NCBI GenBank assembly: GCA_017467605.1
Contig: JAFUSQ010000024.1
Location: 1 to 45,067 of the forward strand
DNA: 45,067 nucleotides
Reading direction: 5' to 3'
Source of the DNA: a bacterium
Lineage (GTDB): Bacteria > Cyanobacteriota > Vampirovibrionia > Gastranaerophilales > Gastranaerophilaceae
The position numbers and the translations under genes were made by a program. Shown piece after piece: positions 24,281-45,067 of this stretch. The first letter of the stretch is position 1. Every line of letters starts with the position of its first letter. The notes under the pieces were generated by a model. That model was not told the origin of the DNA, ran no database searches, and worked only from the letters and a program-made list of their open reading frames with translations.

Positions 24281-25127
24281 GTTTGCGCAAATAATCCATA
24301 TTGCCATGTCTTAATAACCAACCGGAGCAAAATGCACCATTCTTTTGGGAAGTATCATTGTATTTGCATGTATCTCCATAAGAACCTGTTTTATCAAATA
24401 AAGCAAGATTTTCTTGTCCAATTGAAAGAGTAAAATAATCAACACCTGCTTTATTTGGAGGATCAATGCCATTTATATCAACAAAAATAGCTCCACATTG
24501 ATCGTTATCGCACCCAGAACCATTTGACCAAAAAGCAATACTTGTGCCATTTAATAATTGTCCGCGAGCATAAACAGAATGCGAATTAGGCTGCCATGCA
24601 TATCTGTCACTAAACAATGCCTTGTATGTGCCTTCGTAAAAACAACCGTGAGACGTTCCACACTCTCTTGCAAGTTTTAAGTGAGGTTTATAAATTTCAT
24701 AAAGTTTTCTTGCTCCATCTGCACTATCTTCCGTTCCAATATCCCAGCCTTCTGCTGAACCGTTCTCTGCCACTGCTAATTTATGTGCTTGATTAAGTAT
24801 TGCATATGTCGCTTTTAATTTATTATAAGTAGTTTTTTCCTGAATTTTTGTCATCAAAGTAGGAATTGTCATTGCACTCACAACTCCGATTATGCCGAGG
24901 GTTATCAAGACTTCCGCGAGCGTAAATGCTGATTTTTTAAAGTGGATAAGTTGATAAGTAGATGAGTTGATAAGTTCTTTACGGTTATTAAACCTCCCGT
25001 CATTGCGAGGAGCGAAGCGACGTGGCAATCCAGATTGCCCCCTCTCCTGTCCTTCGGACACCCTCTCCCGTAGGGCGAGGGAATGACATTTACCCCTGTC
25101 ACCAATTTTACATTTCATAAATTTCAC
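24258..25127 (-). CDS. Prepilin-like protein with repeat-derived long leader
   Basis: The 289-residue protein carries the prepilin signature KKSAFTLAEVLITLGIIGVV only at residues 64-83; Phe at +1, Glu at +5 and Ala before the cut site are all present. The first 63 residues are unlike any leader: residues 14-50 (HSLALRERVSEGQERGQSGL, then PRRFAPRNDG) are the translation of a palindromic repeat at 24999-25087, and residues 50-62 come from a tandem TTGATAAG-type stretch. The start is GTG at 25127, eight bases after GGAGG; ATG at 25118 is in frame. The mature part has several Cys and a Trp/Gly-rich C-terminal domain. It is divergent from the XRE gene at 25218. Whether the long leader is still processed is unknown. 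Confidence 0.85.
   Translation of the reverse strand: MKFMKCKIGDRGKCHSLALRERVSEGQERGQSGLPRRFAPRNDGRFNNRKELINSSTYQLIHFKKSAFTLAEVLITLGIIGVVSAMTIPTLMTKIQEKTTYNKLKATYAILNQAHKLAVAENGSAEGWDIGTEDSADGARKLYEIYKPHLKLARECGTSHGCFYEGTYKALFSDRYAWQPNSHSVYARGQLLNGTSIAFWSNGSGCDNDQCGAIFVDINGIDPPNKAGVDYFTLSIGQENLALFDKTGSYGDTCKYNDTSQKNGAFCSGWLLRHGNMDYLRKPIPENWK
24999..25087. repeat. Palindromic dispersed repeat inside the prepilin leader
   Basis: Ends are inverted (GTCATT at 24999-25004, AATGAC at 25082-25087). Internally there are hairpins GGCAATC/GATTGCC (25024-25038), TGTCC/GGACA (25048-25060) and CCCTC/GAGGG. GC content is far above the surroundings. It looks like two fused small repeats of a type known from many bacterial genomes (the 'gcgaggagcgaagcg' and 'ccctctcc' kinds). 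It is open in the frame of the host gene. Confidence 0.8.
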
Positions 25128-40437: not shown

Positions 40438-43086
40438 TTATGCCTTTAAAGAAGCTATTAATTCATTTATTGCATCTTCCTGAACCAATATTTCTTCAAT
40501 TCTGCCTTTAGTTTGATTAATCAAATCTTCAGGAGCATTAGAAACAAACTTAGGATTATTCATTCTGCCTTCCAAAGACTTACGTTCATTTTGTAATTTG
40601 CCTAACTTCTTTTCTTGTCTTGCAATCTCAGCATTGAAATCAATCAAATTCTCAAGTGAAACAACAATTTTTGAAGCCGATACAACTGCAGTAGCAGATT
40701 TTTTAGCAACAGGCGCAGTTGCAGCAGAATAAGTTATATTTTCAACTTTTGCCATACGTTTAATATAACTTTCAATAGCTTCAAATATTGGTTTTTCAGA
40801 ATCAACAGCCTGAATTTCAATATCAAATTTCAAACTCATAGGTATATTAAAACTTTGTCTGAGATTTCGTAAAGATTTAATTGTTTCAAATACAAGCTCC
40901 ATTTCCTTAGCTTCATCTTTGAATACTAATTTGTCACTGTAAACAGGATAATCAGCAAGCATGATAGCACTGAAATCTGTATTTTGCGGAATCAATTGCC
41001 ATACTCTTTCTGTTATATGAGGCATTATCGGGTGTAAAAGTCTCAATGACATATCAAGTACATACCTTAATACTCTTTGAGTATTCAATTTTAATGATTC
41101 ATCTTGAAGCTGAATTTTAGCAATTTCAACATACCAATCACAATATGAATTCCAAAAGAAATCGTAAAGAATATGAGCAGTTTCACCTATTCTATAATTT
41201 TCAATATTAGAATTAACTTCTTTTGCCACATCATTTAAGCCGTTCAATATCCACTTATCGGCAATTGTTAACTTATCAAAATCAATATCATTATTATCAA
41301 CTCCTTCAAGATTCATAAGGACAAATCTTGAAGCATTCCAAATTTTATTCGCAAAGTTTCTGCCGTACTCAAAACGTTCATCGGAAATTTTAATATCCTG
41401 ACCGCCATAAGTACAAAGTGAAGTCATAGTAAATCTTAAAGCATCACAACCGTATTTATCGATAATCACAACAGGATCAATTGTATTGCCCTTTGATTTA
41501 GACATTTTTTGACCTTTTTCATCACGAATTAAACCATGTATATAAACAGTAGAAAACGGAGCTTTTCCTGTGAATTCCAACCCCATGGTTATCATTCTTG
41601 CAACCCAGAAGAAAATAATATCAAATCCTGTTACAAGAGTTGTTGTAGGATAGAATTTTTTAAAATCTTCACTATCCGTATTTGGCCAGCCCATGGTTGA
41701 GAACGGCCATAAACCTGAAGAAAACCAAGTATCTAAAACATCAGTTTCCTGTTCCCAAATAGCAGGGTCAGGATTTTCCTTTGCAACTATCATTTCCCCT
41801 GTTTGTTTGTTATGATATGCAGGGATTTGGTGTCCCCACCAAAGTTGACGGGAAATACACCAATCACGAATATTTTCCATCCAGCCTAAATAATTCTTTT
41901 CCCAGCGTTCGGGAATAAACTTAATTCTGCCATCTTTTACGGCTTTTATAGCTTCTTGAGCCAGAGGTTTCATTTTTACAAACCATTGTTCGGAAAGTAA
42001 CGGTTCAATTGTTGTTCCGCAGCGCTGACATTTACCGACATTATGTTCATGTTCACGTGTTCGTAATAATGAATGATTATATTCAAGCATACCGATAATT
42101 TGCTTGCGAGCTTCATACCTGTCAAGTCCATGAAGATTTGAAGGAACTTCTCCGCAGGCCTTCATCTTACCCTGCTCGTCTATAACCCAAATCGGTTCAA
42201 AGCCATGACGTTTCCCGACTTCAAAGTCATTCGGATCATGTGCCGGTGTAATCTTAACCGCTCCGGTTCCAAAATTTTTATCAACATATTCATCTGCAAT
42301 AATGGGGATTTCTCTGCCGGTTAAAGGTATAACAACGGTTTTGCCAATAAGCTCTGAATATTTATGATCATCAGGGTGAACCGCAATTGCAACATCACCG
42401 AAAATAGTTTCAGGACGGGTAGTTGCAACAATTATTGCTCCGCTTTCACCTTTTAAAGGATAAGAAATTTCCCATAAATGCCCTTGTTCAGTTTCATACT
42501 CTGTTTCAACATCAGATATTGCAGACTGACAGCGAGGACACCAGTTAACAATATATGCGCCTTTATATATCAAACCTTTTTCATAAAGTCTTACAAAAAC
42601 TTCTTTAACGGCATCAGAACAACCTTCATCGAATGTAAATCTTTCTCTTGTTCGGTCAAATGATGCACCCAAACGTTTACATTGGTCAAGAATCCTTGAT
42701 TTATGAGCATTTGCCCATTCCCAAGTCTTTTCTAAAAACTTATCTCTGCCCAAATCGTGACGAGATAAACCTTGTTCTCTAAGCTGTTTCTCTACAACGT
42801 TTTGAGTCGCAATACCTGCATGGTCAGTCCCAGGAACCCAAAGAGTTTCATAACCGCTCATTCTGTGATAACGTACGAGAATATCTTGCAAAGTTTCGTC
42901 CAATGCATGTCCCATGTGCAAGACGCCCGTAACATTCGGAGGCGGAATTACGATAGAATAAGGTTTTTTAGGACTTTTCGCATCTGCCTTAAAAAACTCA
43001 TGTTCTTCCCAAAATTTGTAAATACTTTCTTCTGTTTCCTTCGCATTATAAACGGTAGGTAAATCTTCAATTTTAACTGCTGGCAT
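40438..43086 (-). CDS. valS: Valyl-tRNA synthetase
   Basis: The 882-residue class I synthetase charges tRNA-Val. It has the HIGH motif as HMGH (residues 57-60, after PPPNVTGVL), the CP1 editing domain (about 190-330; TTRPETIFGDVA, GTGAVKITPAHDPND), the KMSKS motif (about 525), the anticodon-binding helical domain (about 610-760) and the C-terminal coiled coil (about 820-880, EIARQEKKLGKLQNERKSLE). All are intact and length is normal. A TTAAGAGGAT site precedes the ATG. It is transcribed alone or with the small gene at 40326. Confidence 0.97.
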   Translation of the reverse strand: MPAVKIEDLPTVYNAKETEESIYKFWEEHEFFKADAKSPKKPYSIVIPPPNVTGVLHMGHALDETLQDILVRYHRMSGYETLWVPGTDHAGIATQNVVEKQLREQGLSRHDLGRDKFLEKTWEWANAHKSRILDQCKRLGASFDRTRERFTFDEGCSDAVKEVFVRLYEKGLIYKGAYIVNWCPRCQSAISDVETEYETEQGHLWEISYPLKGESGAIIVATTRPETIFGDVAIAVHPDDHKYSELIGKTVVIPLTGREIPIIADEYVDKNFGTGAVKITPAHDPNDFEVGKRHGFEPIWVIDEQGKMKACGEVPSNLHGLDRYEARKQIIGMLEYNHSLLRTREHEHNVGKCQRCGTTIEPLLSEQWFVKMKPLAQEAIKAVKDGRIKFIPERWEKNYLGWMENIRDWCISRQLWWGHQIPAYHNKQTGEMIVAKENPDPAIWEQETDVLDTWFSSGLWPFSTMGWPNTDSEDFKKFYPTTTLVTGFDIIFFWVARMITMGLEFTGKAPFSTVYIHGLIRDEKGQKMSKSKGNTIDPVVIIDKYGCDALRFTMTSLCTYGGQDIKISDERFEYGRNFANKIWNASRFVLMNLEGVDNNDIDFDKLTIADKWILNGLNDVAKEVNSNIENYRIGETAHILYDFFWNSYCDWYVEIAKIQLQDESLKLNTQRVLRYVLDMSLRLLHPIMPHITERVWQLIPQNTDFSAIMLADYPVYSDKLVFKDEAKEMELVFETIKSLRNLRQSFNIPMSLKFDIEIQAVDSEKPIFEAIESYIKRMAKVENITYSAATAPVAKKSATAVVSASKIVVSLENLIDFNAEIARQEKKLGKLQNERKSLEGRMNNPKFVSNAPEDLINQTKGRIEEILVQEDAINELIASLKA

Positions 43087-43237: not shown

Positions 43238-45049
43238 ATGAGGATTAAAGACAATAAAAAGAAGGCATATACTTTAGCTGAAATCATGATTGTAATACTT
43301 ATATTAACAATCATATTTGCAGCATTTGCTCCGTTTTTTACCAAACGTACAATGACCAATTACGGCAGCCGTTACAATGTTTGGCAGTATGCGAACAGAA
43401 CAGCATTTGACGCGTATTCTGATCCCGGTAAAGCTACAAATACTGCTCAATTATTTTTCGGGGTTACTCCAAATGACAGAAGTGATGTTACCAGTACATT
43501 GCTACCTTCATCTAAAATAGTAGTTCGTTCAGGATATGTTACTTCTACAAAAATGCTCCAAAGACAAATTCAGTTCAGATACGGCAGAACAGGCGAAAAA
43601 GATGCCGGAACATTTGCCGGAACTTGGTTTATGAATGGTAAAAACCTCTTTTTAGGAAGTGCTTACCCAACTGTAAACTTAACTAATACCGGAGCAATGA
43701 ATAACGTTGCAATAGGTGTTGGTGCTTTGAATAACGTTACAACATCAAAAGGTAATACCGCTGTAGGTTATAATGCTCTTTCAGTAGCCTCAACAAGTAA
43801 AAATAATTTAGCAATTGGTGCATATGCCGGCTCTAATACAAACGGTAATGATAATACTCTTGTCGGTTATTATGCCGGAAAAAGTACTACCGGAAGTAAT
43901 CAAACTGCAATTGGCTACATGGCTATGGGTCAAAGCAGCGGAAGCCCATCAGGGATTAATACTTATATTGGTGCTTGGGCAGGAAACAATGTTTCAAGTT
44001 CATCATATGCTAACGTTGGTATAGGAACCTATACTATGGCTAATAGCTCAGTCTCAGGACACCATAACGTTGCAGTTGGGGCCTATGCTCTTAAAAATTT
44101 AACATCAGGCTCTTATAACGTTGCAATCGGATACAATGCCTGCGGAGAAGTTACAACCGGTTCTCGTAAAACTTGTATCGGATATAATTCAGGACCGCAC
44201 GAGAGAACAACCGCAGACTTTTTAGGTGGTCGGACTGATGATATTGAGCGTACATATATCGGATCTAAACCTTATAATTTTGGCGGTGATGCAGTATTAG
44301 AAATTCATAATCCGAATCCAAATCCTGAAGATTCACAAACTAATAAAGTTCCTGTTAATTCAGGGATTCCGGCTATCACAGGAATATTAAGCAGTGAAAA
44401 TAGAAACGGTAGAAATGCTTCCGGTGATGGTTCAGGTTCGGTATCTAATACAACTACTATAGTTAACGGTAATTTAATTGTAAGAGGACGACCATATTTT
44501 ACAACCGGAGCGACATTACACCATTTCCATGACGATAATATATTGCCTGATCGTGCCCCGGTAAGATATTACGGTTACTTGTATGAAAGCGATACAAACT
44601 ATGCAAAATGTGCAACAACTTATGCTACTTATAGCTTTAATTCAAAATGTATAAATATGAACACTTCTACATCAGACAGAAGATTAAAAAATATCGGTAC
44701 AAGATATACTTACGGACTTGATAAAATAAACGAATTAAAAGTTTATAATTACACATTTAAAGATGATAAAAACAAATCTCCGCATGTTGGTGTAATTGCG
44801 CAAGAATTGCAGAAAGTATTTCCAAATTCAGTATTTAAAGGAACTGACGGATATTTAAGAATTCGTTGGGACGAAATGTTCTACGCAGTAATCAATTCTA
44901 TAAAAGAATTAGATGCCAAAGTTGTTGCACTTGTTAAAAGAACAACAAATGTAGAAACTCAAATTTCAAAACTGGAAAAAGAAAATATTGAATTGAAATA
45001 TCAGGTTGAGAACTTAGCTTCAAGAGTTAACAAATTGAAGGCCCAATAA
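43238..45049 (+). CDS. Prepilin-anchored fibre with adhesin-like repeats and S74 chaperone
   Basis: The 603-residue protein joins three modules. (1) Residues 1-38 are a prepilin signal and helix: KKKA then YTLAEIMIVILILTIIFA, with Glu at +5 after the likely cut. (2) Residues 155-320 hold about ten 16-19-residue repeats of the form N-x-A/V-IG-x-x-A-x (NVAIGVGAL, NTAVGYNAL, NLAIGAYAG, NVAIGYNAC), like the head repeats of YadA-type trimeric adhesins. (3) Residues 475-603 are a Peptidase_S74 intramolecular chaperone: TSDRRLKNI with the Ser479/Lys484 dyad, PHVGVIAQELQKVFP, and a final coiled coil (LEKENIELKYQVENLASRVN). In phage tail spikes this domain drives trimer folding and cuts itself off before the Ser. 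A self-processing trimeric surface fibre is inferred. Confidence 0.9.
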   Translation: MRIKDNKKKAYTLAEIMIVILILTIIFAAFAPFFTKRTMTNYGSRYNVWQYANRTAFDAYSDPGKATNTAQLFFGVTPNDRSDVTSTLLPSSKIVVRSGYVTSTKMLQRQIQFRYGRTGEKDAGTFAGTWFMNGKNLFLGSAYPTVNLTNTGAMNNVAIGVGALNNVTTSKGNTAVGYNALSVASTSKNNLAIGAYAGSNTNGNDNTLVGYYAGKSTTGSNQTAIGYMAMGQSSGSPSGINTYIGAWAGNNVSSSSYANVGIGTYTMANSSVSGHHNVAVGAYALKNLTSGSYNVAIGYNACGEVTTGSRKTCIGYNSGPHERTTADFLGGRTDDIERTYIGSKPYNFGGDAVLEIHNPNPNPEDSQTNKVPVNSGIPAITGILSSENRNGRNASGDGSGSVSNTTTIVNGNLIVRGRPYFTTGATLHHFHDDNILPDRAPVRYYGYLYESDTNYAKCATTYATYSFNSKCINMNTSTSDRRLKNIGTRYTYGLDKINELKVYNYTFKDDKNKSPHVGVIAQELQKVFPNSVFKGTDGYLRIRWDEMFYAVINSIKELDAKVVALVKRTTNVETQISKLEKENIELKYQVENLASRVNKLKAQ

Positions 45050-45050
45050 A

Positions 45051-45067
45051 ATAAGTAAGTAAGTAAG
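45051..45067. repeat. Tetranucleotide tandem repeat at the window edge
   Basis: TAAG is repeated four times at 45052-45067, starting a few bases after the stop of the prepilin/S74 gene and running to the edge of the window, so its full length is not visible. Confidence 0.6.

Follow-up and report, generated by a model that had tools for sequence, protein, structure and literature searches.

The open reading frame at 43,238–45,049 bp (+ strand) of the window, which is the whole stretch of 45,067 nucleotides that was analysed, encodes a protein of 603 aa. This protein is probably one chain (C) of a tail-spike-like fibre at the tip of a type IV pilus; the fibre would be a pilin-anchored heterotrimer that is matured by S74 domains. 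On balance, we favour an obligate heterotrimer, in which three modular pilins (A, B and C) would be held in a fixed cyclic order by coiled-coil charges and would mature by self-cleavage. The following features were assigned:

43,238–45,049 (+): S74 modular pilin, paralogue C, whole ORF (ORF call, Pfam, conserved synteny)
43,238–43,267 (+): prepilin leader, residues 1–10, MRIKDNKKKA, followed by YTLAE (Pfam N_methyl match at residues 6–29; residue −1 A, G or S in relatives)
43,268–43,342 (+): pilin N-terminal hydrophobic helix, mature positions +1 to +25, with Glu+5 (E15) and Pro+22 (P32)
43,700–44,191 (+): YadA-like head with about ten N-x-A-IG repeats, residues 155–318 (pattern, PHROG, model comparison)
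44,294–44,488 (+): neck and stalk, from the VLEIHN to the NGNLIVRG motif, residues 353–417 (motifs common to A, B and C at similar positions)
44,489–44,671 (+): variable segment beside the cleavage site, residues 418–478, which would presumably become the distal tip once S74 is released (ortholog identity lowest or nearly so)
44,672–44,893 (+): S74 intramolecular-chaperone domain with Ser479 (44,672–44,674) and Lys484 (44,687–44,689) (Pfam, profile, model, dyad)
44,894–45,046 (+): C-terminal parallel coiled coil with putative trimer-specificity charges at e and g (model helix, charge scoring)
40,438–43,086 (−): valS, a conserved upstream neighbour that marks the locus and is not part of the fibre (ORF call, synteny)
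45,050–45,067 (+): (TAAG)n tract closing the contig (also present at the start of contig C36)

Domain architecture of paralogue C

The original prediction described one frame joining a pilin signal, adhesin-like repeats and an S74 domain with its dyad, and both this three-part composition and the boundaries of the frame were confirmed. The Pfam N_methyl match at the N-terminus had 21.9 bits against a cut-off of 21.2 and is marginal on its own. The class III pilin signal also holds in the relatives with a readable pilin N-terminus, where Glu+5 was found in 97/97, Pro+22 in 96/97 and A, G or S at position −1 in 97/97. With this signal and its extra modules, namely the head and S74, paralogue C has the composition of a modular pilin. 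The genome encodes a secretin, a PilB-type ATPase and a PilC-type platform in one cluster, and also a PilT-type ATPase. PilD was missed by the default PF01478 search and was found by a permissive search and by A24_N_bact (3.9e-36), its A24 catalytic domain being below the Pfam cut-off. The divergent PilD of the genus (L194, 13,303–14,403) has a clear A24_N_bact part, with the A24 catalytic domain below the cut-off in most congeners.

In the genome (G000, 2.19 Mb), at least 149 N-termini of prepilin type exceed the Pfam cut-off, a lower bound with 150 of 218 candidates scored; two of these sites lie in the window, at 214–285 (−) and 24,867–24,938 (−). In congeners, the number was 9 to 111 (G006, 9; G009, 18; G022, 93; G001, 105; G007, 111). 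Many of the prepilin-type proteins of G000 are dispersed, about 250 aa long and carry FTLAEVLITLGIIGVVAA. Some prepilin leaders at L075, L089 and L096 look interrupted or duplicated in frame, e.g., GFTLAEGSRRTGHFATNFCKTHRLMRSAGFTLAEV, as if a small repeat element had been inserted ahead of the cleavage site.

A pattern search revealed nine N-x-A-IG repeats at residues 155–298 and a tenth, degenerate one (KTCIG), which together account for the ten repeats counted originally. A YadA head was not called by Pfam in the 603 aa protein. Comparison of the AlphaFold model of residues 130–301 with the YadA-like head of BoaA gave Z 10.1 and 2.4 Å over 126 residues (VIA-align), and the heads of CbpF, AtaA, BpaC and UspA1 were among the next matches. 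Unrelated left-handed beta-helix acyltransferases score nearly as high against this model, so the sequence repeats are also needed for the assignment of a YadA-like head. PHROG tail-spike and tail-fibre profiles matched the repeat region and the C-terminus. The full-length AlphaFold model (mean pLDDT 53) is confident in the head and the C-terminal helix only and poor elsewhere, and a Foldseek search with it gave no match at E 0.001 or better.

The S74 domain was matched at residues 479–532 (Pfam, E 2.5e-16, 60.1 bits against a cut-off of 22). Its dyad, SDRRLK, places Ser479 and Lys484 five residues apart, a spacing shared with endoNF (Ser911/Lys916) and MyRF (Ser587/Lys592) (PMC8326128). The Ser, Asp and Lys of SDxxxK were invariant in 100/100 S74 copies from Gastranaerophilales-type genomes. 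A search of the S74 family profile against the PDB led to the MyRF ICA domain 7dc3 (2e-12), 8jov, 6f45 and 3gud. When the C-terminal 147 residues were modelled separately (mean pLDDT 86), the model matched 7dc3 in Foldseek at E 3.7e-5 and the phage chaperones 3gud and 3gw6 more weakly. The S74 domain with its SDxxxK dyad is thus supported by Pfam, the relatives and the fold, and the predicted terminal coiled coil is found as a helix at positions 88–146 of the C-terminal model (pLDDT > 90), with a/d heptads present. The calculated mass of residues 479–603 is 14.6 kDa, in agreement with the C-terminal fragment of about 14 kDa foreseen earlier. In the MyRF ICA domain, cleavage occurs only in the trimer, and trimerisation proceeds mainly via the C-terminal coiled coil (PMC8326128). 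At L136 (2626–3926), the prepilin and S74 parts lie in two frames, likely due to a frameshift, and CDRRLK replaces SDRRLK, i.e., Cys stands for the catalytic Ser.

In each chain, conservation is lowest or almost lowest in the segment from NGNLxVRG to Ser479 (ortholog identity of 0.28 for C, 0.20 for A and 0.24 for B); by contrast, S74 identity is 0.61 to 0.72. This segment would presumably become the fibre's C-terminus once S74 is released. A Gly/Ala-rich hydrophobic stretch lies in it just before S74 in 10 of 26 A chains; in the A chain of this genome (contig C36, L033, 4298–6331), the stretch spans residues 449–506, and nine other A chains have a similar one. The character of this stretch is conserved and its sequence is not; it is possibly a membrane-active or buried tip. 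The head length up to the VLEVHN motif is nearly equal in the three chains (median positions 361 for A, 368 for B and 370.5 for C), as an in-register fibre requires.

Relatives and genomic locus

S74 genes were found in 37 of the 59 relatives searched, usually three per genome; named relatives were mostly Gastranaerophilales or Melainabacteria metagenome genomes. A readable prepilin N-terminus was present in 97 of the 100 S74 copies. The outcomes named beforehand as contrary to the original prediction (no S74 match, a lost dyad, relatives lacking the prepilin signal) did not occur, and, judged from these sequences, the fusion of prepilin and S74 is no local chimera. Single S74 genes in the family's other genera were prepilin fusions in 13/13 full-length cases; two further genes were cut by contig ends. 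Outside the order, one member of the phylum was read (G077), and its S74 protein has no prepilin signal. Exactly three S74 copies as a family-wide rule was rejected, as other genera of the family have 1 to 11 copies; G116 and G327 (same family, genus g18) have eleven S74 genes each, scattered over contigs. In family f7 (L054, 7121–8605), a fourth large prepilin-like gene (494 aa, without S74) directly follows the S74 trio.

The gene order valS< C> metK> <B <A MFS> was found in 20 complete loci. The (TAAG)n tract shared by the end of the window and the start of contig C36 indicates that the gene of the window is C and that metK, B and A lie just past the break. It is very likely that the two contigs adjoin as C> metK> <B <A, with metK, B and A on C36, outside the window. 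No phage genes were found around the gene, its neighbours being valS, metK, MFS and typA. In three congeners without S74 (G003, G006 and G024), valS, metK, MFS and typA are in place, and neither C nor A+B is present. The secretin was kept in five of the six S74-less congeners searched. Absence on both sides of metK, together with the retained secretin, indicates that A, B and C co-occur at two sites as accessories of a retained pilus; that they are missing together may reflect one event in a single lineage.

Coiled-coil charges and trimer composition

In a parallel coiled coil, the g position of each helix lies opposite the e position in the next heptad of its neighbour. The C-terminal helices of A, B and C begin at the same invariant Asn and have the same heptad register, as set by hydrophobic a/d positions. 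All 11 possible rings were scored in 22 genomes of genus g1, with six g–e pairs per interface and values of +1 for opposite and −1 for like charges. The ABC ring had a mean of +8.32 with 0.41 repulsive pairs and was the best of the 11 rings in 22/22 genomes, which share ancestry and are not independent trials; with a looser helix definition it was first in 21/22, one helix start being apparently out of register. The opposite cyclic order, ACB, had a mean of −1.77. Among the homotrimers, BBB had a mean of −6.27 with 7.8 repulsive pairs per ring, CCC 0.14 with 4.5 and AAA +2.45; summed, the homotrimers gave −1.2 against the ABC mean of +8.3. As far as charges at e and g can tell, the B homotrimer is disfavoured and the A and C homotrimers are left weak; AAA and mixed rings, e.g., BCC (+4.2), would still be permitted electrostatically.

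With wrong registers and partner offsets, the mean was at most 4.2 and mostly near 0, i.e., the ABC effect was mostly or wholly gone. Permutation of e/g residues within each chain gave P 0.0003 for this genome and 0.0019 to 0.047 for four others. The within-genome ABC value of 8.32 was never reached in 5000 between-genome shuffles (mean 6.9), a comparison that leaves relatedness in. In addition, charge swaps on both sides of an interface were found: C16–A21 changes from RE to EK/DK and B30–C35 from DK to KE. For the ABC ring, nine g–e′ salt bridges are predicted (same helix numbering): A16–B21, A23–B28, A44–B49, B16–C21, B23–C28, B30–C35, B44–C49, C16–A21 and C44–A49.

The first alternative is that A, B and C each form their own pilin-anchored homotrimeric S74 fibre, like phage spikes and MyRF. 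The S74 assemblies described in the literature consulted are indeed homotrimers (PMC8326128), the AAA ring is scored positively, and relatives that have only one S74 pilin must do without paralogues. However, 7.8 and 4.5 repulsive pairs per ring in BBB (−6.3) and CCC (0.1), against 0.4 in ABC, and the fact that all three genes are missing together on either side of metK make this alternative rather unlikely. The original prediction of a cellular, pilin-anchored, S74-matured, tail-spike-like fibre fits the domains, the dyad and the prepilin signal of the relatives, but its homotrimeric form is probably wrong in view of the A–B–C charges.

As a control, 15 genomes with a single S74 gene were scored as homotrimers; the mean was +2.9 per interface (14/15 at 2 or more), about the per-interface value of the ABC ring. 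These genomes also show that the trio is not universal, which counts against the heterotrimeric reading. In the trios of families f6 and f7, one heterotrimer order (+5) was the best of 11 rings (P 0.0025 to 0.028), and these figures agree between two scorings. In S74-domain trees, A, B and C resolve as groups, and the f6 and f7 domains group apart from those of the genus. Given the few columns and long branches of these trees, the f6 and f7 trios are likely, but not proven, to have originated separately. In the heterotrimeric reading, a homotrimeric S74 pilin would have given rise to such trios repeatedly (in genus g1 and in families f6 and f7).

Proposed assembly and comparison with known systems

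In the heterotrimeric reading, A, B and C would each be inserted in the inner membrane by the prepilin N-terminus and processed by the PilD of the genome. Selection by the C-terminal coiled coils would bring together one chain of each kind, always in the same cyclic order. Next, the S74 domains would nucleate the folding of the stalk and head of the trimer and release themselves by cleavage before Ser479; the fibre that remains would be stable and variable at its distal tip. Since each chain has its own pilin helix with Glu+5, the trimer could be extruded through the secretin as a type IV pilus tip complex, probably an adhesin. The pilin that caps a tip complex usually does not have Glu5 (PMC10191384), and its presence in the A, B and C chains counts against such a position.

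It is also conceivable, if somewhat less so than separate homotrimers, that no pilus is involved, the chains being either released or held in the periplasm as fibres anchored in the inner membrane, with the prepilin signal acting as a membrane anchor only. There are at least 149 prepilin-type proteins in the genome and one secretin match, and many of these proteins may not be pilus subunits. On the other hand, invariant Glu+5 and near-invariant Pro+22 are both associated with filament assembly, and an adhesin-type head with a variable tip would have little purpose in the periplasm. A captured phage tail-fibre gene, fused by chance to a pilin and without a cellular role, is very improbable: phage fibres with the same head and S74 exist (the best record, MW202484, covers residues 150–568 in two pieces at 31% identity), but the valS, metK and MFS flanks in 20 complete loci, the dyad in 100/100 copies and the pilin fusions in 13/13 full-length single-copy relatives of other genera argue against it.

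The combination of prepilin and S74 was originally considered new; however, the architecture IPR012902–IPR030392 is already catalogued among the 15 most frequent modular pilin architectures (Raynaud et al. 2021, PMC8179133). These S74 pilins have the same domain pair as paralogue C. In that work, S74 was taken to give the pilus a predicted peptidase function, while for the present protein an intramolecular trimerisation chaperone is the better interpretation; in addition, A, B and C have a YadA-like head between the two domains and form trios with heterotypic coiled coils. The CofB-type minor pilins of type IVb pili form a trimer at the pilus tip (PMC10191384), so three pilin helices at one tip have a precedent. 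CofB, likened here by its description, is described there as a trimer of one protein, with no S74 chaperone mentioned. In the PilABC and PilHIJK systems of S. sanguinis, different minor pilins, some of them modular, occur in one tip complex (PMC10191384), but they do not form a three-fold intertwined S74 fibre.

Phage S74 spikes and fibres (endoNF, the T5 L-shaped fibre, GA-1 gp12) share the C-terminal S74, the Ser–Lys dyad and the coiled coil with paralogue C, and some phage fibres share the head repeats. They differ in being phage-encoded homotrimers whose N-terminus attaches to the virion. MyRF, the ICA domain of which is the closest solved structure, is also a cellular, membrane-tethered S74 protein, but it is a eukaryotic transcription factor and a homotrimer, not an adhesin. 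With trimeric autotransporter adhesins (BoaA, AtaA, UspA1 and CbpF heads), the YadA-like head fold is common by model comparison, but paralogue C is without the YadA beta-barrel anchor and its pilin anchor is at the opposite end of the chain. A C-terminal YadA membrane anchor was not matched by Pfam, the C-terminus consisting of S74 and the coiled coil.

The literature search, with most subscription journals outside its scope, found no paper on a heterotrimeric S74 assembly and none on S74 pilins in Gastranaerophilales. The new part thus appears to be the heterotrimeric assembly of the S74 fibre, the domain pair itself being known. If true, this would be the first heterotrimeric S74 assembly known to us and a mixed-pilin, tail-spike-like pilus tip, and it would turn a catalogued but unstudied pilin architecture into a specific, easily tested assembly rule. 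It would show how single pilin subunits can give rise to a three-fold fibre, and would supply naturally occurring sets of specific trimeric coiled coils. The findings suggest that bacteria adapted a phage spike-folding device for pilus-tip fibres and that gene triplication let three chains diverge yet stay locked together. They also provide predicted surface adhesins for a widespread, little-cultured gut lineage that is a relative of cyanobacteria.
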